Source: Agelas oroides (taxonomy: Eukaryota > Porifera > Demospongiae > Agelasida > Agelasidae). From it: 64,000 nucleotides of DNA. The stretch's first letter is position 1. Every line of letters begins with the position of its first letter. The position numbers were made by a program, and so were the translations under genes. Positions 130 through 57,700 of the stretch are shown piece by piece. Under the pieces are notes generated by a model. The model saw nothing but the letters and a program-made list of their open reading frames with translations, had not been told where the DNA came from and searched no databases. Location: assembly GCA_949130485.1 (NCBI GenBank), contig OX422183.1:23915702-23979701 (forward strand), read 5' to 3'.

Positions 130-3100
130 AATCCCCTAATACGACCAACTCTTGGCGTTGAATCCAGTGATGCAGTTAGTAGAGAGCTACTACAGGGCCT
201 TGGAGAAATCATTGCAGAGGACACAAACAATATCTTAGTTCAGGTAATTACATGTGGTGAGATGTACATAACCTGAGTAATCTCACTCTTGATGTTGTTC
301 TGCCTCTGTGGTTGGATATAGGATTTTGAATCTAGACACCTACTTAAGCTGTGCCAGGGTCAGCACAGCTGCACACGTCACCCAGCCTTTGGCCTGACCA
401 TTACTTTCTTGAACCTTCTTCTGTTGACACAATCACTGACAATAAAACATGAGACTTTAATTTGGCATTGGCAAAGCAACCTGCTGTGAACTGCTAATGT
501 ATCTGGAACCAGAGAAAGCATTACAGCTAGAGCTGTATACCTAAATCATGATTGTTGAGACTGGTTGTTACTTTCTGCATCTTGATGTACCAGATCATCT
601 TTCTTCAAGTTCCTCTCTAACTTTCAAAAGTGCTTGGATGTTAGTGGCAGTTTGCTACCAGAATGGCCTCCAAAGCAATCTAGGCAGGGCTACACTTATG
701 GTCACACCTGTTAGAAGGCATTGGTGTTTTTTTCCTTCTTTTTTTTCAAGACATCACTAAATCAGGCAAATAATTTTAGCAACCAATTCTTGTTTTCAAC
801 TGCAAAATGCTAAACAAAATGGAGAAATTTGACATCACAATTATCATTCCATTCATTGAGTTGTGAAAGCTTGTTACTAAAACCTTGTGTAATCTTCTCA
901 TGTGGTGACGTTACTTTTGTAGTATACAGGTAATACTTAACATGCAAATGTTAAGTGTCATGTTTGGTTATGAGCCACCTAAAAATGGTAGCAGTCACAT
1001 TATAATATTGTCTTGTTAGCAAAAATGAAGTATTTTACCTCAGTGGCCTATGGTGTCTCGTTACCTTGCTTATTCTCCACTTCATCCTTGTTTCTGTTGC
1101 AACAGGTGGGTATTATTTTCCATATACTGAAACATACTTGTAGATTCTGTTTTATAGCCCACAGGGAGTTGTAAAACGATATTTTCTATTAAGCTACCTT
1201 GTTTACAGTGTATGTTTACTAATAACAACAAGGACCAATCAGGTTGGAGAAAATAACACATAACGCATGTTAGTCTGGGATTTACAGTAACCACCCTTGC
1301 TCTCATATCCATTACAAAACAGATTTCTGAGGCTACTCCTTTAAACACACAGCAGCATTGGCAGTGAGCATCTATATCAAGACAGCGTATTCCTCAGAGG
1401 CTTGATGTTATTTACTGTAAACAACAGTAGGTGCTCATGAATACAGATGTGTTTTTGCTGAGAGAACAAGAAGGTATTGGGTTCGAATCCCAGCTGGATC
1501 CCGGATTTTTTTCCGTGGATTTATTTCTCGCTCTCTCAGTAAAAAACATCTGTACAGTGTATTCCTCTTTACTCACAGGGGCATTTTGGTATAGGAGGAC
1601 CATTTGATCCCCTGAATACCACTTTACCACTATGGGAGGCATCAGGAGTCCTTCCTGTAAATCGGGTGAGTGTTTTTAAAGTGGTAATTATACTGTAAAC
1701 CTAGAAATATACAGGTGCAGCAGACCAAAGAAAGTCAGGAACTTAACAGTGATTATAGAAATAGTGAACACTCGTGCTTGGTAATAACTGAGGTGGGGCT
1801 AGTTATAAGCACTACAGTTGCAAAAGTTACTCAATTAACCACTCACATGCACCACACGGTAGCCTTGTTCCCAGTCCCCAACTCAGCTTTTCTTTGCTTG
1901 CAGTAGCTACAGAAACGTGGAAGTAGCCTGATACATAACCTGAAGTGAAATGACATCGTGTATGTTGTAAGGTGGTAGAAAGCACTTGAGGAAGAAGAGT
2001 GAAAATACCAGGTATTGCACCACACATCTAGCTAGTTTGGGAGTGACTATCATACACAATAAAGATTAATCTGAGTTAACATAAGGAAGTGGACTACGCA
2101 TGCGCAGTTTAATTACAGCAGTGAATGAATGGCGCATGAAATTTTGGTTGGCTAACAACATGGCCTCCTGCAAGTCTGTGGTTAAATCTCTGAATATCAC
2201 AGTGAAAAAGTTCGTTCCTATACCATATTTGTCTATTATGGAGCTACTACTATCATTTGGTGTCAGTACTGAGCTGCAAAAGGATGAATTTGATGGTAAA
2301 CTCAAATGCGGTTGTTCCGCTGACCAGGTCAACTGTGCTCTGAGAGATTACTTGTTTGAGGATGCCCTGAAGCTGAATCTAGCCTCTGATGGTGACTGTC
2401 TTGTCATGCGTAGGAAGTCATATTCTATGTCAGTCAAAGATAAGCATGCAGAGGACATATGGATGCTCGTTGAGATGATACAGAGGCATGAGAACCTCCC
2501 TCGGACAATCCTGAAGAATGGCAAGCGGAGTAGAGGCAAGTTTATTCGCTCTCGGACCAAGGAGAGGGATCACAGCAGAAAGGAGTCTGGAGGGAACACT
2601 GATGTGGGTGGAGCCAGTCGTAGAGAACATGATGCGTTGGTCAGATCCAGGGTGAGTGGGGAGGCTGTTAACGTGCAGATTGGTGGGGTGGAATCGGCAG
2701 GGTCGGGGTCTCTGTTGGGGAGGGGGGGGGACATGTGAATCACAGTCTGGGGTCTTCGAGTCCTCTGTTGTGCAAAGTATTAATTCTTTGAAGGAACAAA
2801 TGAGTGTGCTTCAGGCTGGTCTCAAATTCTTCATGTTCTTATAAAGTCAAGTCAGAATAAATGAATCTGATGTTGCTACTGTATTGTCCAACAACAGAAA
2901 GGATGGGTGTTTTGTGGTTAAGTGGCGTGAGAAGAGCAATTCCTCCAGGAGATCAGCTGTTGTTGTACAAGAGAAGGCTTTTGGGTCCACAGACAACCTG
3001 AAATTGACGTGCTGGAACTGTAGAGGATTGTCATCCAGTCTGCCTTACATTTGTTCTCTGATAGAAGAAGGCTCTAGGATCCTTGTTGTCTCCGAGCACT

Positions 3101-6100
3101 GGCTCTGGCCATATGACTTGTACAAGCTAGGTGAGATCCACACAAAGTATGACGCCATTGGGAAAAGCGATGGGAGGTTGAATCCAGGGAGCGGTGGCAG
3201 CAGAGGTTTTGGTGATCCTCTGGCACAAGGGTATTGGCGCAGCGCCCATCTCAGGAATCAACTCAGATAGAATCTGTGGTATTAGGTTCAAAATCAATGG
3301 AGATGACAACTCCTTTTTTCAGTAGTAAGTGTATACCTTCCCTGCATTGATCAAGGTGTGGACTGTTACAGAGAACATCTGGTGGAGTTAGAGCATGTCA
3401 TGAGTGAGTCGCGGCTACTGGGTCCTGTAGCTGTTCTGGGAGACTTCAATGCTCATCTTGGTCTGCTGAAGGGGGAGTCACAGAGTCTGCAGGGGGTCCT
3501 TTTGCAAGAGCTGTTGGATAGATGAGAGGTTAATGCTGTATCTCAGGGGTCCCTGGCATCTGGTCCTACCTACACCTATCACAGTGGTGATGTGCGAACC
3601 ACAGTGGATTACATTCTGATGGATGTGGAGTCCATCAATGACCACCTCATGTGTCACCCATGAAATGGCGGACCTGAACACATCTGATCATTTGCCCCTG
3701 ACTGCATCTCTGGTTTACTCTACAGTCCCAAAGCATGAAGCCACTGAAAATGAAAATGCAATGCCATCCCGGATCGATTGGGCTGAGGCTGAAAGGAATG
3801 GTGCAGTATTGGCCTTCTCAGCTGAGATAGGTCACAAGTTAGAGCCTCTATTCAGCAAGCTTTATGATGACCCTAGTCAAATAGGGGCTGAAATTGAGCA
3901 GGTCGCTGGTATACTTCAAAAGTGTGCTGGTAGAGCACTGCCCTGTGTTCAACCAAAGAAAGGCAGGAGGTGATGTGATGACGTTCTGAGTAGTCTCTGT
4001 GCTAAGAGCAGGCAAGCTAGGTTAGAGTGGAAGAGAGAGCTGGTTGTCCCACAGAAAGTCCACTTCATCTTGAGAAGAACAGATTGAGAAATGCTGTCTG
4101 AAAGAGTCAGATGGTGTGCTGCCAAAGCTGAAAGGCTAAGAACACAGTGAAGAGAGAGGATGTTCGCTGAGCAGAATAGTAGGAGATTCAGAACACCAGG
4201 GAGAAGCAAGAAACTCTTCATTACCATAGGAGACCTCAACCATAGCCCTGATCTTCTCCTCCCATTCTTGGTTGTTTTTTTCCTTTACGGAGGAGCAAGT
4301 ACAGTTCTTGGGTTCACTGGTAGAGAGATCGGTGTCGAGAGCGCTCTAGGCACCGTGGGAGAATACAGACCCTCTGCCGTCCGCTGACTCGGCCAGTGCC
4401 GACTGAAGAGGTGAGCGTCACCTGTTGCCTGTGATGCTAGAGCACGCTAGCCTCGTTCCCAGGCCCGCACCCAGCTTCCGTCGCTTGCAGTACGGTTAAG
4501 CGGGAGAGGGCCTGGGAACGAGGCTAAGAGCACGCTACTGCCGAAGCAGAGCACCTGGGCGGGGTGCAGGCGCTTCCATCGGGGACCAGACCTGGTCAGG
4601 AGTGGGGACTACCGCTGGTGGCATAGCTGGCTTGGCAAGGGCACCAAGCATGGTGCTGGGCCAATACCTTACTGCGTGCTGGGCCTTCCAGGTGGGCTCA
4701 AAAGAAAAGCATGGCGCGCGCGTGCCGTGGACCAGCAAGCTGGCACGGCGGGGTCGCGCGCCCGGAAAGCAATTAGCCACCGGCATGGGCGGGCACGAGG
4801 TTGGAGCACAGGTCTCCCAGGGCGAGGGGCAGGGCACTCCACTCGTGAAGTGATCATAAAGTGGGGGGTTAAGGTGGAGCCCTTCTCAAATCTCACAGAG
4901 GTGGTCAAGTGTGAATTTTAAGGAAGTGGTTAGCGAGTGGTGTTGTATGTGTTACCCACTCTAGGAGCAACACGGTTGGGGACCCTGCTGGACCCCAGTC
5001 AGTTGAGCTGGGTGGTTAGGGTGGGGGTGGGGGACCAGCCAGGGGATGCATCGGGAGCGCTGGAAGAACATCTCACGGAACAGTTGAAGATGGCGGTAGA
5101 TGAAGAATCTGGGCAGCCAAAGCCCATCAAAGCCCCACAGCACTTCCTGGCAGCACCTGCCCTTCCCACCATAACCTCTAAGCTGGCCCCAAAAATTTGG
5201 GACCTGGAGTTTGTGGAGATGGAGGAGTTGCAGCCCATGAATAGCATTAGCCCATTCGGTGTTATACCAAAAGGCCACACACCGGGGAAGTGGCGGTTGA
5301 TAGTTGACCTTTCCAGTCCCAAAGGTGGGAGTGTGAATGATGGCATACCCCCTGTCGTGAGTGGTGCTCACTGTCGTACATGAAGGTGGATGATGTGGCA
5401 AGACATGTGGCACAATTGGGCAGAGGAGCTCTATTGGCAAAGATGGATATTTATCAAGCGTACAGGATGGTCCAAGTTCACCCAGACAACAGGGCATTGC
5501 TGGGAATGAGGTGGGATGGAGGGGTTTACATAGATACCAGGCTACACTTTGGGTTAAGGTCTGCACTGATAATATTTACTGCGGTTGCAGACGCATTGGA
5601 GTGGTGTATTCGGACCCAGGGGGTGACGTACATACGCCACTATCTGGACAACTTCATCACAGCGGGCAGTCCAGGCTCAATGGAGTGTGCAGCGAAAGTC
5701 CAGCCAAAGTCCACACCAAACTTGGATTATGCAGTTTGGTGGTGTTTTGGAGCAGGCCATCGAAGGGTGAGTTATGGTGGCCTCAGCAGGTGAGCAGACT
5801 GTAGGTTAACCAAGTGTTGACATGTGCTTGCCTTTTTTTGTCTTTCTTCAGCCTTCGCTGCCTTCTCTTCCTTTCTCTTTTTCAGGATTTTCCTGTGCCT
5901 TTTCTTTCTTCCATTGCTTGCTTGCACTTCGCTTTCAGCTCAGCTTCTGCTCTCCTTTTCTCTGTTTCTCTTCAAGAACAGATAGAGGTTGTGAGCTGGT
6001 CAACACATGAAATCCAGACACTCTTTGTGAGGCTTTACTAGTTCTCTTGGGTGTAGGGACATACTGAACCAAATACTTAGATATAACCCTGAGTTCAGAA

Positions 6101-9100
6101 CTAACCACACTGCTGCCAGAGGAGGGGTAGAGGGGAGGCTGCTACTAGGAGAGGGCATCACCGAGGTGGAGGGGAGACTGCTGCCAACAGAGGATATCAC
6201 CGAGAAAGGGGGACGATTGCCGCCAGGAGACAGTGTCATTGAGGAGGAGGGAAGATGGATGTCAGAAGAGGGTATCACCGAGGAGGAAGGGAGACTGCTG
6301 CCAAGCACTGCGGAAGTACTGACAGGTTTAGTACTTGAGGCAGTTTGCAAGGACTGTGACTGTGTGGTGCTTGTGAGGTTATCACAGACTAGTTAATGAG
6401 GGTGAGAGAGAGGTACATGTGCAAAAGCATCAACAATTGAAGGAACTTCACTGTCAAGTGTATGAACACTTTCAGGATGATGCCTCAACCATGCTAGGTA
6501 ACGAGGATCGTATAAGTCGTAACCTTCGTAACTCGTTGCAAACCTGTTGTCTTCCTCTGGCATGAAGTCAAGTACATGTTCTCCTACTGAATCATCTTTT
6601 TCCATTCCTGACAAGATTTCATCACTGTCACCTGAAGTAGCTTCTCATGTAGTACCATTTTCCCTAGCTACATTTGGTGTGTGTGTATGGCAATTGCATC
6701 AGGATTGAAGGGATAGACACTAGACACCACATTTTTTAAACCCTGAGACAATATCACTATATGGCTGGGGTGTTGTTGCATGAACTTGTAGCACAGATCA
6801 CCCCAGTTGTGTTTCAGTGGCCCAAACAGACATGTGCCAAAAGGTTGTTACTCATGTGTGGTGTGTGGTGGGAGGCAGAGCACATTAACATGTTCTTTGG
6901 CAAAGCGAATTGTTGATGGGTTACAGCTACTGTTGCTGTTGGATGGTCATAGTTCACACTGTAACCCATCAACAGTGGCCAGGAACCAACTGCGAGCTTG
7001 AGGAAATGATCTGTCAGCCAGCCATGAAACAGCTCCGAATCTATCCATCCGTTACTACTCAGGCCATAAGTAGTTCTCAATCAGTCCAGTCATGATTCAA
7101 GCATTTGGCATCAAATATGACAAACAGAGGGATTGATTGACCGGCTGCATTAATACACCCAACAACAGTAACCTGCTTCTTGTTCCCAGAGACTCGATAA
7201 CAAACTTTTTCTTGCCATCTTCTTGCAATGACATTTGGAGGTCTGTGATCGAGTGGGACGCCCATTTCGTCAACATTGTAAATCTGTCCTGGGCAGTTCA
7301 TCAAGTTATGCTGTTTCAGGGTTTCTTCAAGGGACTTGAAATAGTCTTTTTTTTTTGGTTTCAATGTCCAAGGCTTCCATACGAACATTAGCAGTTGTAT
7401 CTCCTCGTTGCAGAGTAAGGTTGGGTCTTCTTTCCAAAATATGACAAAACTAACCATCGGATATCTTCTCATCCTGCAAGACCCCCTTCTCTCTTGCTAC
7501 TGCTTCAACTATCAATTTTACCTCCTTTCGTGTTTTGCCATAGCCAACCTTGGCTACTTCCGTTAAAAAGGCTTCCAATTCTTCTTCTTCAGCAGACGTC
7601 AAATAAGTACTAGGCCCTGACTCACCCCTTCACACGATCTTGCAAAATGCTCCTGGGCACATCGTACATAGTTGCAGCCTGCAGCAAGCTTATCCCACCC
7701 TTTACAGCTTCAATGGCACTCAACATACTTTCATCTGTCCATTCTCTTCTGCGGGAACTCCTTTGCCTTTCCAGCAATACCGGCAGTGCAGACAGTGACT
7801 GTGGCTCAAACCTGTCTAACAAAATTGCTTACTCCGTGAGAGATTATCATACATAATCTCCTTTGCTTAGCTACATGGCATCGCTATTGTTTTCTGGGGA
7901 GAAAACAGTTTAGTTTACCTTTAAATACCTGAGAGCTAGTTACCTATAACCGAGAATACTGTCAGACATGTCCTACACTCCGTAATCTATTTGATAACCT
8001 TTTGTATACAAGTGTGTCGACATTTGGTCAGCGTGGTGCCGATAATAGGTACATGCTGATAATTCAGTGGCGGGTCTAGAAATTTAGAAAGGGGGGTTGA
8101 GTCACAGGCGCGCGAAGCACGCTGGAAAATTTTTGGGTTGCCACGCCCACTTTAGGTCACGTGAACGCATTCATACAAAATATAGCTGGAAGGCCGAACC
8201 GAGGGGTCCGTCACAAAAGAAATCTCGTACACTTTCCGACAGTGTTGTTTTAGTTAACTATAGCTTTAACTAAATACATTTTAGTATGGCCTTTTTAAAA
8301 TTTAGTTAACCAAAATTACAACTAACTAAAATTTTTTGCTAAGCTGGGAACTATAACTAAAATATCCAAGAACATACAAGAAGAAACCTGTCGGAAGAAA
8401 TCCAAACTGAAATCCGGAAATCCAAACTGAAATCCAGAAATCCACTGTGAAATCCAGAAATCCACTCTGAAATCCGAAATCCACGTGAAATCCAGTGGAT
8501 TTCGAAATCTCGTACGCCGAGGCGCGCCGTGGCGGACCCCTCGGGCCGAACTGAATATCTCGAAGCAACTCTAGGCCTAGTCAAACGTCTGGAGATCAGT
8601 AAGGAACTGATACGTGAGTGTGTAACTGTGCCTGGTTGTTGTTGCTGCATGCCACTGCTGCATAATCATTTGATGGACTCGTGCAGTTATGTACGCAAAA
8701 TACATTACTAGCCGCCAAAGGGGGGTGCATTTGCACCCCCCTTACCCCCCCTAAATCCGCCACTGTAATTGGTCACTTATGCTACACAGAGTTAATAATC
8801 CAAATATAGAACATCCAGTTATGCCTACCTAGCAGCCACTCAGTATGTGTCAACTGTTAGACTATTGTCTGTGCAGTATCATGGAGTTATGGAAGTAAAC
8901 TACTAGCTAGATGTTAGCTACCACCAATGATAAATAGTATTCAAAAGTTAATATTGCTGGAGAGCCCTATATAACTTTGCAGAAGGAAAGATCTCTAATT
9001 TATAAATAGGACATAATTATCAGCTCACAAATCAACAGCAAAATGAAACATGTTGGACTGGAAACCCAGTATTTCCATAATCAGTCCACCTCAAGGATTA

Positions 9101-12100
9101 CTGTGGGAAACCTAGCACAATTAATTTGAGACATTTCCAATTGTTTCAGACATTGTTCCATAGTGTTCACTTACGTGAGAGAGAGATGGGGATCTACAGA
9201 GACAGAGGAATATCCATTACACATTGCCCTGTTTCCAACATGTAGTAAGTTTCCAATGGTCCTTGATGCCAGATTAGCTAGGCACTTTGTGATAATTATG
9301 TATGTATACATTTACCGTAGTCTCACAAAAGAGCGCCCATGGGTGGAGCACCTTACAAGCCTGGCAAAGAGGGGGGTGGGTGCTCTTTTAAGTGTTTCTG
9401 CATTTAACCACTAAAGAGCACCCATGTATGCTTACAGCGACCCACAAATTCGCCGAAGTATTGGACAAACAATAACGTACGACGGAGCCGCGGGCCTTGG
9501 ACGCTCACATTTAGATGGCACGCAACACTCTGAACGGCAAAACACCACCCTGAGCGCGGTGTGACTAGCAAGCATGGCCCCATTAGCTGGCTACGACGCA
9601 AAGCCACCCTTCAGTAAAGTGTAACGCGAAGTTTTCTTACCTCAGACATGCAAAGTGTTTGACGCTGTGCTTCTCAACACTCCACGAGTGTGCTCAGATT
9701 AGCCACACAAAGCGCGCTCCAGGGTGGGTGCTCATTCAAGTAAACATTGACCCTATACAGGAAATTGGACCAAAAGTAGGGGTGGGTGCTCTTTTGTGAG
9801 ACTACGGTATATACCTTCAATATAGTTCCCATAAAGTACTGTACAATGTCATACAGTTTCAGCTTGCTTTAGTTTTCTACTAACAGCTTTCTACTAACAA
9901 TTTGTAAGCTCTCGGTATCATTCCCAGGCAAGTTCTCTTTCAGGTTTTTCATTTACCAGTTGCTTACTCTCTTAATCCAAAGTGTAGCAAGTGGAATTCT
10001 TGATGTGCGGAAAATGCTCAATTTTGGAATCAATGTTTGCTTAGGAACAGGTAGGCTATTACAGTACAGTCTGCAACTAGCTATGTATACGTAGATGGTG
10101 GAGTATAATCTTAGAAACTCTAACATAATAAATGGCCAGTTTGCAATTGATTCTTATGTATGTCACTGTGTTGTCTGTCATCTGAAGTTAAATCAGGGTA
10201 ACAGGTCCATTATGTAGCACACAAGCTGTTGTCCTGCAAGCAACTGTATGTAGAAAATATGTATATGAAGTTAGCTGAGGCATCTGCATGTAGGCAATGC
10301 TGCCTGAATAGCTTGTTTTCTGCTCCTCTACCAAGGGATCCATGTGGTTTAGCTCTAAGAGAATTGCATGTACATTCTGGGTCCAAATTCCATCCTGGAT
10401 CTGAGATTTCCCACTCTCCTGACACTTTCATAACTGTTCACAAAAACTACTGGTCAATACAATAGCTACACAACATAGGAACCATATGGCTGGTCAGACC
10501 ATAGCTGGACCAGTTTTCAGCTGACTTGCTCTACTTAGCAATGTATCCATGTTCATCTTGGATGTGTTGTTGTTCCCAGACTAGATTGCCAGGTTAGTCA
10601 TTGCCATGATTGGTTGTGCAAAAAAGTGCACACAGCAACCTTCAGCTACCTGTTTGAAGGTGAATTTTGATGAGAGTGCTTCCTGACCACTAAAATGAAG
10701 GTGTGGAAATTTTGCCGTGCTTTACGTGCAAACAGCCTGACCATCCTCAACTTGCTTCTGGCAGGCCTGCACAAGGACAAAGTATTCTAAGTGGCTGTGT
10801 ATTTTCAATGTGGCTGGTGCCAGATGTGATAAGTGAGCATCACTGTCAACTAGATGAAATATGCTCATATCCTTCTGCAGATCCTGGAGCTGGATACTCC
10901 TTTTCCATTCTTGATGTTATGAGAGTAGCCCAACTTGCTTCCCGTGAACTCAGCAGGAACATCAGTAAAAACCTGCCTGCTGACTACACACCACTCACCC
11001 TTGCAGAGGTGTTCTACATGGCCACCATGGGAGGGGCACGAGGTATCAACCTGTCATACTTATAAGTGGTCTCTCCAAAACGTGGTCCCCATTGACCATC
11101 GATCCATAGCAGAAACAATACCATATTTCCTCAATCAGACACCGTGGCTTTTATTTTTTCGCTGTTTGTTTTGGTGTGGCTACTAATTAAAGGTGGTGTC
11201 TATTACTTTGAAAAGCGGATATCAATGACGGCATACTAAGGTACATACTGGTGATGCAGCTACGCCTACAGCTATGAAGCCATTCATGCCGCTAGGCAGA
11301 CACTCTACTTCTCAGCAGCTAACCACAATGCGATGACTGATAGACACTGGCAGTAGTACGCAAATCTGCTGTCAGTGGTAGAAACAAATTGATTGCTCAC
11401 CTACACACAGCTGTAGTAATTAAAGCATGTATATAACTAGGTCAATGTGCTAATTCCTAAAGAACAGTGTGGGATGATAGCTAGAGGTCTAATCAGTTTA
11501 GTCCAAAGCTTTTAAATAGCGCCAAAATGACTAGAGGATATCCATAGTCAACTAATTGATTGCCAGTATACAATTAGTGACTAGTTGGCTATTGGCACAT
11601 CAACTTCATGACTTTAAATTCTGACAGAACCTGGCCGTCTTGTGTGACACTAGTATGTGAGTACATATGGCTGACCATTATAGTGTCACTACGACAGTAT
11701 TGACTATAGTTGTCGAACAAACATTGTAGTCAACAACCAATTGTAACTGACTAATTGACTTATTAAACCACCACAACAATATATTATAGTTTCTACAGCT
11801 ATTAGAGCATGCAAGGACAGATTTTTGATCACTTTTATGCAGCAACTGGCCTTGGTGACACAGTTGGAAATTTTGAGGTATGCATCACTGAAACCTCAAT
11901 AGTAAACTCTTTGTAGTCATATATACTCATGGTTACAGAATGCATGGTACTATGAAGTGAAGTAACTCTGTTTCAGGTTGGAAAGCAGTTTGATGCTCTT
12001 CTGGTTGATACCAGTGTTGCAGCGTTTGATACATTTGAAAGTGACACCAGAAATGTAAGCAAAGCTAACTTAAAGCTGGTTGTTAAAATTTAAAGCCTTT

Positions 12101-26000: not shown

Positions 26001-29000
26001 TTTGGATAACTGAAGTTCGGATAAGTGACTTCCTACTGTATCTAATAATGGCTAAAAATGTTAGTCTCATTACATTTTTTCATTGTAAGTCACGGTTACT
26101 TACAGTCCATGAGACAGTGATGGAAGAACTGGATTCACCTTCTTCTGCAGTGGCACTAACATTCTCGGGACGGAAGGGTGCTGGGGGGGGGGGGGGGGGG
26201 AGAGCAGAGACAAGGAGGGAGAGGAATCAAAAGCGCTTAATACAATGTATTGATGATGACTGGAGCATTCAGTCGAAATGTCGGCAAGTTATCTTCCGAG
26301 CTCAAGTTGGTAACAGATAACCTTCTCTCCATTTATGCAGAAGCCAACTGAGAAGCCACTGAAAGTAATACACTCTATTGAAGGTTTTTCTGTGACTCTA
26401 GGTATCTCTACGAAACCGAGAACTAGTACCGTATAGCGGGAAACTTTCGAGGGAGAGAACTTTAACGAATTTTGAGGTTTTGTAGCTATTCGTGAAAGTT
26501 TGGGGGGGGGGTGGCGTCTTTTGGCGGCGACACTAGTGAGCAATTCACAAAACTTTTCTCCGCAAAAATCTTATTTTTCGCCAATTCGCGAAAGTTTTCT
26601 CCCTTGAAAGTTTCCCACTATACTGTATGTGATCACTTCCATGTTGTATACACAAAACTGTGTACTCTTTCGTAGTGCTGTCTAAAGTGCTCTGTTACAT
26701 AAACTTGGACAGTTTGTTTTTCAAAACATGCATGCACACATCCCCTCCTTGTAATAATGATGGCTACAATTCGAGTGCTATGAGCTACTGCTAGATGCAT
26801 ACATGCATCCAAACACTTACCCTCCGATCTGACAGTATAAGCATCCAACTCTTCTGATCGCACCCCTTGTCCGTACGCATTCCTCGCAAACACCACCACA
26901 CTGTACCTCCTCCCGGGTGTGAGATGGAGAAGGTCCACTGTAGTGTCATTTCCCTCCAGTGGCACTTCGAATGACCTCCCACCTTGCTCTGTCACTAGCA
27001 CTGTGTAGCCCAGGACAGGGGCGTCACTTGGGACCGGGGCGGGGCTCCATTTCAGCGTGAGGGAGTAGAGACTCTGTTCTAGTTGTTCCACTGTCACTGC
27101 CAAGGGTCGGCCATCTGGGTGGGTGGGTAGCAGAGAAGAGGAGGTGCATGATAATGTGCAAAATATACAGTGGACACAAACTTAAAATGAATAAACACAT
27201 CATACAACACACACAATCTTAGGTTGTATGTTTAAGGTTCAACCAATGGATATCATATTTGCAGGTATACCGTAGTGTCCCGCTAATACGCCCCCTTCGA
27301 AAATACGCCCCCCCCCTCTTTTCCGCCAAAGTTCCTGCACAGGGTAGTTTGACTCGTTATAACGCCCCCCCGGTGAGCGTCTTCTGGAACATCAAAACTA
27401 CACGTGCTTACTATACGTTGCAAGTGCGTTCAGTAAGACTATAGTCGTCTCGCTGCCACTCTTGTGCAAGAAATACCAGCAGACTCTGGAAATTTCCTGT
27501 GGTACATGACCGACAGTGTTGCCGTTCTTGAGGACAGCTACAGCGAAGTCGTCGTGAATGTTATTGACCTCGCGTTGAACTGGCAGCTCTTCTCCGATGT
27601 AGGGAGACCACGCAGCTTTGTAAACGTGATGTCCGCGAACAGTACTCTCGATCCTGAAAGTCGTCGCCATAGTTAGTTGATAGGAAAGGCATTGATTTCA
27701 TAGGGGGGGGGGGGGCTTATAGTCGAGACTAATTGCATCCTCGAATATAAGCCCCCCCCCCACTTTAGGCGGGATGTAGTGTACAAAATGGGGGGGCGTA
27801 TTAACGGGACACTACGGTAGTTTTTACCTGTGAACATGAATGTGGCCGTCCCCAAGTAGAAATCGAAAATTAGTTTTAGCATTTGTGGCAGGCAGTCTTG
27901 GGTATATAGAAATCGAACCAATATTCTGTTGCATATTTCAATTCGGTCCATTACAACTAAGGATTGTTCTTTTTTTAAAAATTTTTTTTTTATTTATATG
28001 AGTTTTGTACAACACCAGGAGTGTATACAAGGGTGAAGCCACCTAGCGATGCGGCTAATATAAAGGCTGCCCAAAACAAACAGTGAGAATACAGAAACAA
28101 GACAAACAAAGATGGCTTAACAGGGAGTCACAATTGTCATGCCATCTCCCGGTGACAAACCTAGCTGCGAATTTTTGAACTGATTGTTGACATGGATAGC
28201 ATAGTTGGGGTCCCAAAGGGAAGAGCAATAGTCAAGAATGGGTAAAACTATGTTCTTAACTAGTTACATGAAACCATTGTTCCCAAATTAGAATAGCATT
28301 AAATCAACAACACATCTACTCTACAGTTGGGTTACATGTACTGGATAATATCTTCTGTGTCCTTTTAATGAAGATGAGATTGCAGATTTACACACTGATT
28401 TGTCTCAGGCCCTCCCTCACAGCCACACAGCCTACCTCCCACAAAGAGCCTTGTTCTTCGACTACGCAGCAGGGTGTGGTTGTTCCTCATGATGATGCAC
28501 TGGTAGGTCGTCCCGGAGTCCTCCAGCTTGGTCGGGTTCACCTCAATCCCGATTACCATTCCCTCATGATTGGCCCAAGCGCGGTGACGTGGAGGAGGAA
28601 AATAAATGTCCATGAAGCGTTGGTTTCGGTACAAGGTTGTGTCGATCACTTGTTGGTTGTCATTGTCATCTGTCATAGCGGCTTCACAGGGGAAGAGAGT
28701 GACACGGTCCGGGTAGGAGTACTGGTACTCGGGAGGCTCAGAGAGAAACTGGTATTCTGGTGTGTGTGTATGTGTGTGTGTGTGTGTGGATGTGTAATTA
28801 CAACACATGAAAGGAGTTTTGTACATTTCAGCGAGTTTTTATAAACCATGTACTGACAATTTCAAAAACCCCATAACTAAAGGATGGACATTGAGCAGTA
28901 CAAAACTGAATGTATTTGTACTTTCTTGTTAATTATATAAGTTCCATTCATTGATCATGAGTGACAGCACCACATACTCACAAAAAAACTGGGAAGCCTT

Positions 29001-36713: not shown

Positions 36714-37494
36714 CTTACACGTCTCAAACTGTCGTTTTGGACGGTTCAACAGCAGTTAGATACAGGAACAGTCAGTTTATGCAGGATCAGCCTGGATCTT
36801 GGACTAAGCCAACGAAATTTCTCCTTTCACCGTTGCAGCTGTCGACTGTAAAATTAAATATGCATATTGTGGTCACTATTGATGCACGTGGAACCGATGT
36901 TGTTCGACAGAAGCCACACTACATCCGCTTTCAGCCATAGAAGGACCACAAAGGACGGAGGAAGCAAAGCACAGCAACAACGGCTAGCCAGGTGTCAACA
37001 TTGCCACACAATTTGTGTATTCATCACATTCCTACAACAGCATAGCTGTAAATCGCAGTACAGTTTATGATGAATATGGCTGTAAATTGAGTGGCACTGT
37101 GGGCACGTTCTTTTAATAAAGTGGGAGTGGTACATGAAACAAGTGTGAATTCAGCTTAGTGATCGCAATTTGCAAACAAAGAAAGATTGCATCCTAACTG
37201 TGCTATGCCTTCACTGGGTGAAAGTGTTAGTGATAGCAGATGGGCTTGCTCATGTTGCTTGGTACTATACCGAGGTTGATACTTTTCAAGACTTCATGAA
37301 AATGAAGGGTGGAGCATGGCATACAGGCCGAATTATTTTTCACGTGATACGTCCGCGCCATTTGGCGGGAACTTTGACAGAGCTAGTGCGGTCATGATCG
37401 CCACTGTATGGTTGTCTGTACCGTGGCGTACTTCACCAAGCAAGGAAGAGAGGGATTAGCGAGTGAGTGAGTGGACAGAAGAAACTTGGAGGCC
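36714..37494. promoter_or_regulatory. Divergent promoter region between the receptor and CHK1 copy 1
   Basis: The start codons of the minus-strand receptor (36713) and plus-strand CHK1 (37495) are 781 bp apart with no gene between, so the two genes share a promoter region. An E-box CACGTG (37341-37346) and an E2F-type site (37361-37371) lie 124-154 bp before the CHK1 start codon. The part from 36767 onward is repeated before CHK1 copy 2; the first 53 bp, next to the receptor, are not. Confidence 0.65.
37361..37371 (+). promoter_or_regulatory. E2F-type site TTTGGCGGGAA
   Basis: A perfect match to the E2F consensus TTTSSCGC/GGGAA class, 124 bp upstream of the CHK1 ATG. CHEK1 is cell-cycle and E2F regulated in vertebrates, so this fits the gene's expected S-phase expression. 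Binding is inferred. Confidence 0.6.
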
Positions 37495-50206
<12,712 letters not shown>

Positions 50207-54758: not shown

Positions 54759-57700
54759 ATGAGCGAGAAAGGTGGGGAGAGGGTGTCTTTCGTGGAGGGC
54801 TGGGAGTTCATGCAGACCCTGGGAGAGGGAGCATACGGCGAGTGAGTGCTTCAGCTGTTAGTGGTTCCCCTTTTGTGAGTTCAAATGAACCTGTACCTTT
54901 GCACATGACATCACTACTTAGCAAATACGTTGTGACCCACACACACACACACACACACACACACGTACACACACACACACATGCACAGAGTGAAGTTGGC
55001 TGTACACAAGGATACAGCTGAGTGTGTTGCAGTCAAGATTGTGACTGTGAATGGGAAGGAGGGACTGACAGACGAGTGTCTACGCAAGGAGGTGGGTTGT
55101 GGTATACACTGCTTATGGTCAAATCACCTTTCCCCTTGCCTAAGATCCTTGAGGTTTACTACTAAAGTGTATAGCAGGTTTTTTGATCGAGGTATATATG
55201 TATTTCGCCGTAACAAAATTTGGCTATTTACTGTGGACTTCAGTATGACTAACTCAACATGTACATGTACTATACATGAATCTAACTAGTGAATTGGCAG
55301 TCTTATGATTTGTGCAACAAAAGTGGTTGGGGCTAGTTAGAAACCTGGGTTATGTACTACATACAAAAACATATCTGATGTTAGGCCAAGTAAAATAAAT
55401 TATTAATTTCTTATCCCCGTGGTATGCTCTTCAGCCGGCGTATGCAATCGTTTTATTTACAGCTACATGTTTATCAACAAATACGTAATGATATAAATTC
55501 ACCAGCTATATTACTATGGGTACAGCTCGGGTGTGCTCGATCAGGGAACACCTTTGCCAGACCAATATCAGACAGCTTCTGTTGTGGCATACATTGGGCG
55601 ATCTCCCCATAATCTCCTGATTGAACATGCTTGTCACACCAAAAATATTCCTCCTCCGCGTGCCTAATCTGGACTTATAAGTTGATGAGAAACTAATAAT
55701 TTATTTTACTTGCCTTATGAGGTGAAAACAGAGAAAAGTCCAATAATCAAATGCAATGCTCCACCACTTCGTGTACTACCACTGCATGAACTTGCATGGG
55801 TTTCATTCCTGTCCACTGCAAAAATAAAAAGAGGCAAAAGAAACACTGGAACTATGCGTCTGTGAAAGGTTACCGTATAGCCGGTTAATTTTGCGGGGTG
55901 CAAATTTTCGCGTTTTTCGCGAGTCGGGACCGATTCGCGAAAATTCTCTCCCGCGAAAATTTAGAAAGTAACACGTGAAAGAGACCGAGTGTCATTTTAG
56001 AAGTCTGTCGTTGTAAAGCAAAGTTCTAGATGTCTATCGTTTCCTGTGTCTTACAATATCGCTCCCTTCAGGGTTCAATACTGCCACTGCAAAAGGATCT
56101 TTTGCGTTTCTACGTTCCTGTGCACACTGTAGTTGCTCTCCAACTGTTGCTACCCAAACAGCGCTATATGTGTGGTAGCCTCGAACGCAGCTTTCTGCTT
56201 CAAAAGTCTCCATTGGTATCGTTCGCACGTTTTGCTTCTCGTTGTACATGTGCGCTAAATAGAAATTTATGACGACGCGCGTGTGACCGCGAAATTTTAA
56301 TTCGCGAAAATTTGTGCTGAGGCATCTTTTGAGCGATTCGCGAAAATTTGTACCCGCGAAATTAACCGGCTATACGGTATACAATAACTAGATGTTTGTC
56401 CAGCAGAGGCACTAAAGTATCAGTGGTATACACATATCTCCTTTGCAGATCTGCATTATGAAGATGTTACGCCACCAACATGTGGTCCGGTTCTTTGGCC
56501 AGCGGACGAGTGGTGATACTCGCTATCTCTTCTTGGAGTATGCAGATGGAGGAGAACTCTTTGACAGAATAGGTCAGTGATGAGGTCATACATGTCCGTT
56601 AATTAAGTTGACATACTTTGGTTAATCATGAAAGATTGTTTGTGTGTATTCTTTAACAATTAATACACACAAACCCTTAATGCCAAGCCGTTTCTGTTTG
56701 TGTATGTCAAAATTAACAGTACACATTCTTGTATGATTGAGGCATATGGTACAACAAGTAAATAATCCGATGAAACCGCTAGCACCCCTGCATATGTATA
56801 TGTAGCATCTGCGCCTGCTTTTTTCAGAGATGTAGATTATTGTATACGAAACTTGCATACACATGCACTGCTACCTTTATATAGAGTGAGTGACAGGATA
56901 AACACATAAACATTGTGTGTGTACATGCTGTGGGGGGGTCCTATGTGTCGGGTTGAGGTGTACAGAGGATGCTATGTTTCTGTGTTACAGAGCCAGACCA
57001 TGGAATGGAACCGGGACTGGCACATCACTTCTTCCTACAGCTGATGTCTGGAATGGTAAGTGTAAGTGCGACAGTACGTATATTAGGACAAAGGAACGTG
57101 TAATACATTCTAGCTTGCACTCCAACATGCTCACAGAACCTAGAGGTTAGAGCTGTTTTGCCTTAGTCTTTTAGAGAGTGCATGTAGTGTTACTTTTCAG
57201 AGAGTCGGTAGACTCTCTATGTAGGGATGGTGTGGACGCGCAATATATGCAATACGCAAAAGCCATATAACTTCACCAAGAGCGCATAAGAACGGGCGGC
57301 TAGAGTAAGAGCGTGTAACTCCAATAGAAGCCCGTAGTCCTGGCAAAATTATTGAACCGTACTAAAAATAGAACACCTGGTCACATGCGTGCTTAACAAC
57401 AATGCATAATGGCTTATGTCAACGCAGCGTGCGCAGGGCATGTTACTATTTTTAGTACTGGCGGTAAATCCGCCTGGTTTCGAAATTTATGTAGTTACAC
57501 GCTCTTACTCTAGCCGCCCGTTCTTATGCGCTCTTGCTTCACCACAAACACGCTAAAAGCTTATTTAAGCACCCAGGCTTCCTCTTTGAGTGCCTTTGTG
57601 ATCAGCAAGGCTCATATAAGTGGCCAAAAGCCACGCAAAAGACAGCTAAACGCAAAAGTATGCGGTCATGAAAGTGCCATTTTTCGTATTCTTTAATTCT

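Follow-up and report, generated by a model that had tools for sequence, protein, structure and literature searches.

How does a short, TA-flanked element without a transposase come to carry a HIRAN domain? The question is raised by positions 27270-27817 of a 64,000-nucleotide stretch of the sponge Agelas oroides (assembly GCA_949130485.1, contig OX422183.1, positions 23,915,702 to 23,979,701 of the forward strand; hereafter the window), where an initial annotation, made from the sequence alone, had placed a small HIRAN-carrying transposon. Our answer, to which we assign a probability of about 0.85, is that internal deletion of a two-gene pogo transposon produced this miniature element, and that HIRAN is a maintained accessory gene which the short copies carry as a passenger. 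HIRAN was found in transposase-bearing elements of at least two distant pogo lineages and of a third TA-inserting lineage with long terminal repeats.

The element in the window and its HIRAN frame

The element is real and non-autonomous and lies where it had been placed, with the TA flanks and terminal inverted repeats (TIRs) claimed for it; the length between the flanking TAs is 548 bp rather than 547 bp. The TIRs are 26 bp long, match at 25 of 26 positions and have a TA on both outer sides (Table 1). When 60 dinucleotide-shuffled windows were searched for TA-flanked inverted repeats (at least 85% identity, 150-1500 bp apart), the longest was 18 bp and occurred in one shuffle. A 14-base end motif taken alone is not significant in the window: with up to 3 mismatches allowed it occurs 2 times, where 1.86 occurrences are expected. 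The minus-strand frame of 90 codons was also recovered: it matches the Pfam HIRAN profile with an E value of 1.2e-6 (28.6 bits, cut-off 24.7; protein residues 24-73, profile positions 21-71 of 96) and the HIRAN domain of human HLTF in the PDB with a sequence match of E 0.0027. A chance origin of the repeats or the frame is ruled out by the paired TA-flanked repeat of 26 bp together with the Pfam match.

The domain had been described as the fuller of two in the window, yet it is truncated. Only 76 of the 120 parental codons are present, followed by 14 residues from the parental 3′ non-coding DNA, because a second internal deletion joined HIRAN to downstream non-coding sequence. The predicted structure of the truncated frame, built on a two-row alignment, had no confident fold (predicted local distance difference test score, pLDDT, of 45) and the model was not used.

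Full-length parents and origin by deletion

The parents were reached through two copies at loci L060 and L061, both initially considered as possibly autonomous. L061, a 1.6-kb copy in which a pogo-type DNA-binding domain stands beside HIRAN, proved to be internally deleted and led to the full-length elements. A search of the host genome (259.3 Mb, 141 contigs) with the DNA-binding domain of L061 gave 31 matches, only two others being near-identical, each with an open frame of 455 codons. The full-length copies are L062 620-2992 (2373 bp) and L063 167-2541 (2375 bp), which are 99.45% identical, TA-flanked and bounded by 26-bp TIRs. Their ends are those of the window copy bar one base, with the C form (Table 1) at both sides. 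Each has an open frame for a pogo-type transposase of 444 amino acids and a divergent frame for a complete HIRAN protein of 120 amino acids. The L063 transposase matches Pfam DDE_1 (7.4e-29), HTH_Tnp_Tc5 (1e-12) and BrkDBD (1e-6), and the transposase of the full-length element matches CENP-B in the PDB (2.6e-4). Its catalytic residues, picked by motif, are D177, D286 and D323, a DDD triad with 36 residues between the second and third. The L063 HIRAN protein, tested from one codon upstream of its start, matches the Pfam profile at 2.1e-8 (34.3 bits, cut-off 24.7).

Nine short or shortened copies were aligned to the 2375-bp L063 element and four kinds of single deletion were seen (111|1744, 157|1768, 183|1833 and 323|1098). 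L040 and L041 keep 1-111 and 1744-2375; L043 and L044 keep 1-157 and 1768-2375; L046 and L047 keep 1-183 and 1833-2375, with loss of the HIRAN start; L061 keeps 1-323 and 1098-2375. L060 shows a more complex rearrangement. The window copy retains 1-111, 1744-2004 and 2197-2375 at 97-99% identity, its first deletion having removed the transposase gene and its second the last third of HIRAN. By this alignment the 548-bp element is a doubly deleted, non-autonomous derivative of a pogo transposon. It resembles a miniature inverted-repeat transposable element in being short, in having TIRs and a target duplication in common with a larger element and in lacking a transposase. In the copies read, the deletions spared the HIRAN end, so that short copies carry the HIRAN frame as a passenger; in the window copy the domain was shortened by the second deletion. 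The parent transposase would have cut and pasted such copies in trans through the common ends, inserting them at TA. The proposal of an undescribed HIRAN-carrying transposon lineage therefore holds in part: the elements carry HIRAN, are present in high copy number and do not reflect chance capture, and we found no description of them in the searches made, but the short elements themselves are deletion derivatives of transposase-encoding elements.

Copies across the genome and insertion at TA

The HIRAN profile gave at least 150 genomic matches, all above the Pfam cut-off (150 of 402 candidates scored), and the matches listed for the window protein are 91-100% identical to it (150 of 1238 candidates scored). 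The DNA of the 548-bp element has at least 21 copies over query positions 1-548, the window copy included, at 89-100% identity (40 of 373 candidates scored); further copies match it in two blocks and represent a longer form. The exact matches to the 25-base end motif (Table 1) stand against none for the reversed control. Of the 100 listed ends, 80 could be joined into 40 pairs and 20 had no partner. Each pair joins one C end to one T end, at spacings of 531-917 bp in 37 cases and of 1545, 1599 and 9505 bp in the others. Thirty of the 40 pairs enclose a listed HIRAN or element match, and the two further pairs that were read (L060, L061) hold HIRAN as well.

Insertion at TA could be followed directly at one copy, L025. 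Its flanks, joined with a single TA, were matched elsewhere over 180 of 180 bases at 98-99% identity in all 40 places scored of 1427 candidates, which reveals an uninterrupted target and a duplication of TA for that copy. The target is itself a repeat with a tandem spacing of about 1657 bp and 1427 first-look candidates (for example C1:1704685-1723139).

The abundance of open HIRAN frames raises the alternative that the miniature elements form a lineage of their own, in which the short-copy HIRAN protein promotes its own amplification and is kept by use. Internal stops are indeed absent from 147 of 150 listed matches to the HIRAN profile and from 149 of 150 to the window protein, although these lists are ranked by score and so biased toward intact frames. 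The retention of the HIRAN end would also fit, but the copies read were mostly chosen by their HIRAN matches. The HIRAN start is lost in L046 and L047, and nine listed rows, L046 included, share the 22-82 span and a 104-codon frame, so this start-less form has probably spread. Moreover, the truncated window type accounts for at least 21 copies, there is no excess of synonymous change within families, and the openness of the frames may reflect nothing but their youth. We regard amplification by the short copies' own HIRAN as distinctly unlikely and retain the reading of them as passengers of a transposase-encoding parent.

Two loci are of separate interest. At L064 (C8:7249800-7253300; 703-2679, 2733-3500) a HIRAN short element of 713 bp (778-1490) is situated in a gene region with NACHT and Death domains. 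The HIRAN frame runs on without a stop past the element end into a Death-domain frame (HIRAN 1.5e-4, under the cut-off; Death 7e-5), with a NACHT domain (1e-13) in the next frame. By sequence it is possible that HIRAN has been exonised into this gene. An fn3 domain match, like these NACHT and Death domains, points to an animal genome. Across the genome the Pfam HIRAN profile scored highest at L002 1510-3238 (C20:4532695-4535934; 1.9e-13 for the frame), an unnamed protein adjoining a long open frame without a Pfam match; within the fetched stretch it is not an HLTF-like helicase.

A second pogo lineage and the other HIRAN element of the window

The window holds another HIRAN element (55873-56377), and the initial annotation had treated the two as one lineage with two types of end. 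Their parents turn out to be distinct, one Passer-like with divergent genes and the other a distant pogo lineage with convergent genes. The latter is best represented by L057, a TA-flanked element of 2976 bp with 41-bp TIRs, a HIRAN-Ulp1-like fusion gene and a convergent DDE_1 transposase of 482 amino acids (4.9e-14) that is 24% identical to that of L063 (7e-18). A relative of 3027 bp at L066 has 45-bp TIRs and the same convergent arrangement, its transposase being split over two frames; L067 is a decayed copy of the L057 type with mutated terminal bases, and at L056 transposase remnants are found close to the fusion gene. HIRAN and Ulp1/C48 scores in the fusion genes are 3.5e-7 and 0.002 for L057, 4.1e-7 and 8.4e-4 for L056, and 3.3e-5 (under the cut-off) and 7.2e-4 for L066.

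The 55873-56377 element has 19 copies covering query positions 1-443 or more, itself included. Of this element, bases 99-173 and 173-505 align with the two sides of L070, a larger element that carries transposase remnants on the plus strand (566-4123) and a HIRAN in convergent orientation (4587-4252). In L070 only HIRAN and no Ulp1 part was matched, and the outer 98 bases at one end of the window element were not found there. By these alignments the element is a deletion derivative of the second, distant lineage. Its decayed HIRAN frame is 43% identical to that at 27398-27670 over 65 amino acids (E 1.4e-11 within the window), with one internal stop, and scores 16.4 bits against the profile. 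The HIRAN similarity on which the annotation relied passes the Pfam cut-off for the frame at 27398-27670 and falls below it for the one at 55873-56377. Local DNA alignment of three parts of both window elements was no better than with shuffled letters.

Linkage of HIRAN to the transposase was assessed across the genome. A search with the second-lineage transposase gave 95 matches (88 of 334 candidates scored), merged to 57 loci, and these were compared with 135 HIRAN or Ulp1 rows, from which 38 first-family short-copy rows had been left out and one such row kept. A HIRAN or Ulp1 match lies within 4.5 kb of 23 of the 57 loci: both domains are present at 8, HIRAN alone at 9 and Ulp1 alone at 6. 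Every one of the 23 is in convergent orientation, whereas in 200 shifted controls the count averaged 0.125 and never exceeded 2.

The fusion gene bears on what we consider the main rival for the role of HIRAN, namely that HIRAN, with its Ulp1-like partner in the second lineage, is a device against the host that blocks or diverts fork remodelling or SUMO-dependent silencing and takes no part in the transposition reaction. The fusion in L056, L057 and L066 would suit such a device, as would the Ulp1 or OTU domains known from other DNA transposons such as Ginger1, as far as the relevant part of that account goes (PMC2836005). The C48 matches in these three loci, at 18.4, 19.7 and 19.9 bits, are all just under the Pfam cut-off of 20.7, and the free-standing HIRAN of the first family comes without a protease. 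We consider a counter-host role less likely than not.

A third lineage with long terminal repeats

A nested element of about 3.9 kb (L048 1458-5380) has inverted repeats of 519 and 531 bp (95% identical) ending TA-CAGTGGAAC. It encodes a transposase-like frame with weak HTH_33 (0.0016) and DDE_3 (0.015) matches, both under the cut-off, and a convergent HIRAN gene of 102 amino acids (4.2e-12). The same convergent pair is found at L004, L006 and L008, while L005, L007, L009, L049, L050 and L053 have a HIRAN of this type without such a transposase in the fetched stretch. The long-repeat element of L048 sits inside another HIRAN short element, with ends CCGTAGGCGCCGG.

Constraint on HIRAN and its relationship to HLTF

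Over 44 aligned codons the two window HIRAN frames differ at 17 first, 16 second and 35 third positions, a pattern that is the mark of constraint at the protein level. Rates of nonsynonymous and synonymous change (dN and dS) were compared for pairs of at least 40 codons with a nonsynonymous proportion (pN) under 0.35, all others being dropped. Between families dN/dS is 0.06-0.24 in 16 pairs with finite dS, and in four near-copy HIRAN pairs it is 0.31-0.77. These comparisons place HIRAN under purifying selection between lineages, selection that is invisible in recent copies; L060 has one nonsense change in HIRAN relative to the parent. An alignment of 18 paralogues gave a confident model of the 120-residue protein (pLDDT 88.2, predicted template modelling score 0.83), with N37, D40 and V46 invariant and Y17, R33, E34, V44, G54 and H55 nearly so.

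Transposons capture host exons, and since the host repair protein HLTF contains HIRAN it might be argued that unrelated short elements each captured an HLTF-like exon recently. The data give such captures very little room. HIRAN lies in transposase-bearing elements of three lineages, and third positions of the two window frames have come close to saturation (35 of 44). A genome search with the human HLTF HIRAN fragment, in which 150 of 240 candidates were scored, gave a single weak match (E 0.0043). In a tree of 18 HIRANs the two window types group together, apart from HLTF and the third lineage; the phylogenetic comparison envisaged for the two frames leans against separate capture, although the grouping is weakly supported (80/57) and some branches are very long. 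We consider recent capture scarcely credible, and a maintained transposon gene the better account. No relatives were found in the phage, plasmid and viral-contig collections searched; the search of genome contigs in collections returned one bacterial HIRAN protein, from Prevotellaceae.

A candidate function can be proposed by analogy. In HLTF the substitution R71E prevents binding to 3′-OH ends, and N90A,N91A was used as a HIRAN mutant, according to the portion of that study drawn on here (PMC11366124). The window frame retains both asparagines (Asn90/Asn91), and N37 is found throughout the 18 aligned proteins. The transposon HIRAN shares with that of HLTF the Pfam domain, the PDB match, the Asn pair and, within the region that aligns, the Gly-His; it differs in being free-standing (120 amino acids) or fused to an Ulp1-like domain, and at the Arg71 position. 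The protein is probably DNA-end-binding. Like HLTF HIRAN it would bind single-stranded DNA with 3′-OH ends at transposon ends, excision gaps or forks, and this may help transposition or steer repair; we take this as its most likely job, at odds slightly short of even. More tentatively still, end binding that aids ends, gaps and forks could be why HIRAN recurs, free-standing or Ulp1-fused, as an accessory gene in at least three distant TA-inserting lineages.

HIRAN might instead regulate or repress the transposase of its own element, perhaps by sitting on cleaved ends. As a separate gene with its own reading direction it could do so, and short copies could supply competing protein. The high copy numbers oppose strong repression, and we consider such a regulatory role very unlikely; a constrained accessory gene, probably acting at DNA ends, is preferred.

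Several observations weigh against our overall reading. All support comes from sequence comparison. The gene order is divergent in the first lineage and convergent in the second, so that a single acquisition of HIRAN is no more than possible. The dS values behind the low between-family ratios are 1.3-3.2, near saturation, and the remaining between-family pairs are saturated. Relative to the parent, 29 first-family HIRAN copies carry 0-1 synonymous and 2-5 amino-acid changes, where neutrality would give a ratio of about 3.5; between the transposase frames of L062 and L063 there are 1 synonymous and 5 amino-acid changes. Spread of the truncated window-type HIRAN, the presence of Ala at the residue aligned with HLTF Arg71, and 34 of the 57 second-lineage transposase loci without HIRAN or Ulp1 nearby among the matches listed all point the same way.

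Relationship to known transposons

The first lineage has the marks of the pogo superfamily: DDE_1 with a DDD triad, TA duplication and a pogo-type N-terminal DNA-binding motif. Within it, Passer elements (IS630-Tc1-mariner group) are described, in the sections consulted, as having TIRs under 30 bp, a transposase of 400-500 amino acids with BrkDBD and HTH_Tnp_Tc5, a single open reading frame (ORF) and TA duplication (PMC9976928, PMC7386202), and almost all are DD35D in the pogo survey. The first lineage shares the TA duplication, short TIR (26 bp), transposase size (444 amino acids), both DNA-binding domains and the DDD triad; it differs from these descriptions in the extra divergent HIRAN gene of L062 and L063, where Passer has a single ORF, and in the spacing of the last two catalytic aspartates, which is 36 residues instead of 35. 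Judged by family descriptions, it fits a Passer-like pogo transposon except in that spacing and the extra gene.

The second lineage (L057, L066, L067) shares with other pogo/Tigger-type elements a DDE_1-type transposase, TA flanks and TIRs of 41-45 bp. In the section of the survey consulted (PMC7386202, section 8), pogo elements carry a single ORF or two, with transposases as their products; the second lineage adds a convergent HIRAN-Ulp1 fusion gene. With DNA transposons that have Ulp1 or OTU domains, Ginger1 and Mutator among them, it shares an Ulp1-like protease domain, but in Ginger1, as described in the part of its account used here, that domain lies within the transposase, whereas the second lineage has it in a separate HIRAN fusion protein.

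A HIRAN gene as an extra gene of pogo elements is absent from the consulted parts of the pogo surveys, and the words HIRAN and Ulp1 are absent from the main text of a survey of pogo-like elements (PMC7325037). No description of a HIRAN transposon was found among the titles and abstract openings listed in literature searches; subscription papers and Repbase lay outside this search, so an earlier description is possible.

Features of the window

Coordinates are collected in Table 1. Elsewhere in the window, a degraded pogo-type transposase occupies about 6600-7830 on the minus strand in several frames (HTH_psq 7.5e-9; DDE_1 0.0068, under the cut-off). This remnant was considered as a helper, and no TA-flanked repeats of at least 14 bp were found around it. 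A TA-flanked element of 197 bp at 26429-26625 is without HIRAN, though in its ends, CCGTATAGCGGGAAA, it is similar to the HIRAN short elements L064 and L068. A further TA-flanked element of 493 bp at 9315-9807 has a 25-bp TIR, CCGTAGTCTCACAA (24/25), and no HIRAN match. Positions 37467-38021 and 54936-55289 are duplicates that share a long frame and CA-type repeats; near them, at 38116 and 55384, are elements with ends GGCCAAGTAAAATA.

Table 1. Features of the two HIRAN elements, in window coordinates.
Feature	Position	Strand	Basis or remark
TA target dinucleotide, left copy	27268..27269	.	Read directly; TA flanks in related copies; uninterrupted target of L025
Left TIR (C end) CCGTAGTGTCCCGC	27270..27295	+	26 bp, 25/26 matches; 25-mer motif with 484 exact genome matches
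Right TIR (T end) CCGTAGTGTCCCGT	27792..27817	-	26 bp; ends at 27817
TA target dinucleotide, right copy	27818..27819	.	Read directly
Non-autonomous element	27270..27817	-	L063 (2375 bp, HIRAN orientation) minus about 112-1743 and 2005-2196
90-codon open frame, N-terminal two thirds of HIRAN domain	27398..27670	-	ORF list and Pfam match
HIRAN coding in parent (76/120 codons)	27443..27670	-	Comparison with full-length element
Chimeric 14-residue tail and stop	27398..27442	-	Parent 3′ non-coding DNA; comparison with L040/L063
Joint of second internal deletion (about 193 bp lost)	27443..27449	.	Alignment to full-length element
Joint of first internal deletion (transposase gene lost)	27702..27707	.	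Alignment to full-length element
Other HIRAN element, TIR CCGTATAGCCGG (24/25)	55873..56377	-	Deletion derivative of second pogo lineage, by alignment; decayed HIRAN frame from 56213 down

Implications

One genome holds both the deletion derivatives and their full-length parents, so that comparison of the two shows directly how the short copies arose. The parts of the surveys drawn on here describe pogo-type elements as encoding transposases only, and a second gene for HIRAN goes beyond that. Stray gene models labelled 'HIRAN domain' in animal genomes may stem from such transposons. If the end-binding explanation of its recurrence is true, HIRAN would represent a class of transposition co-factor not described before in eukaryotes. 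A HIRAN gene in three lineages of one genome, constrained between them, offers a testable lead on how transposons handle DNA ends, forks and repair.

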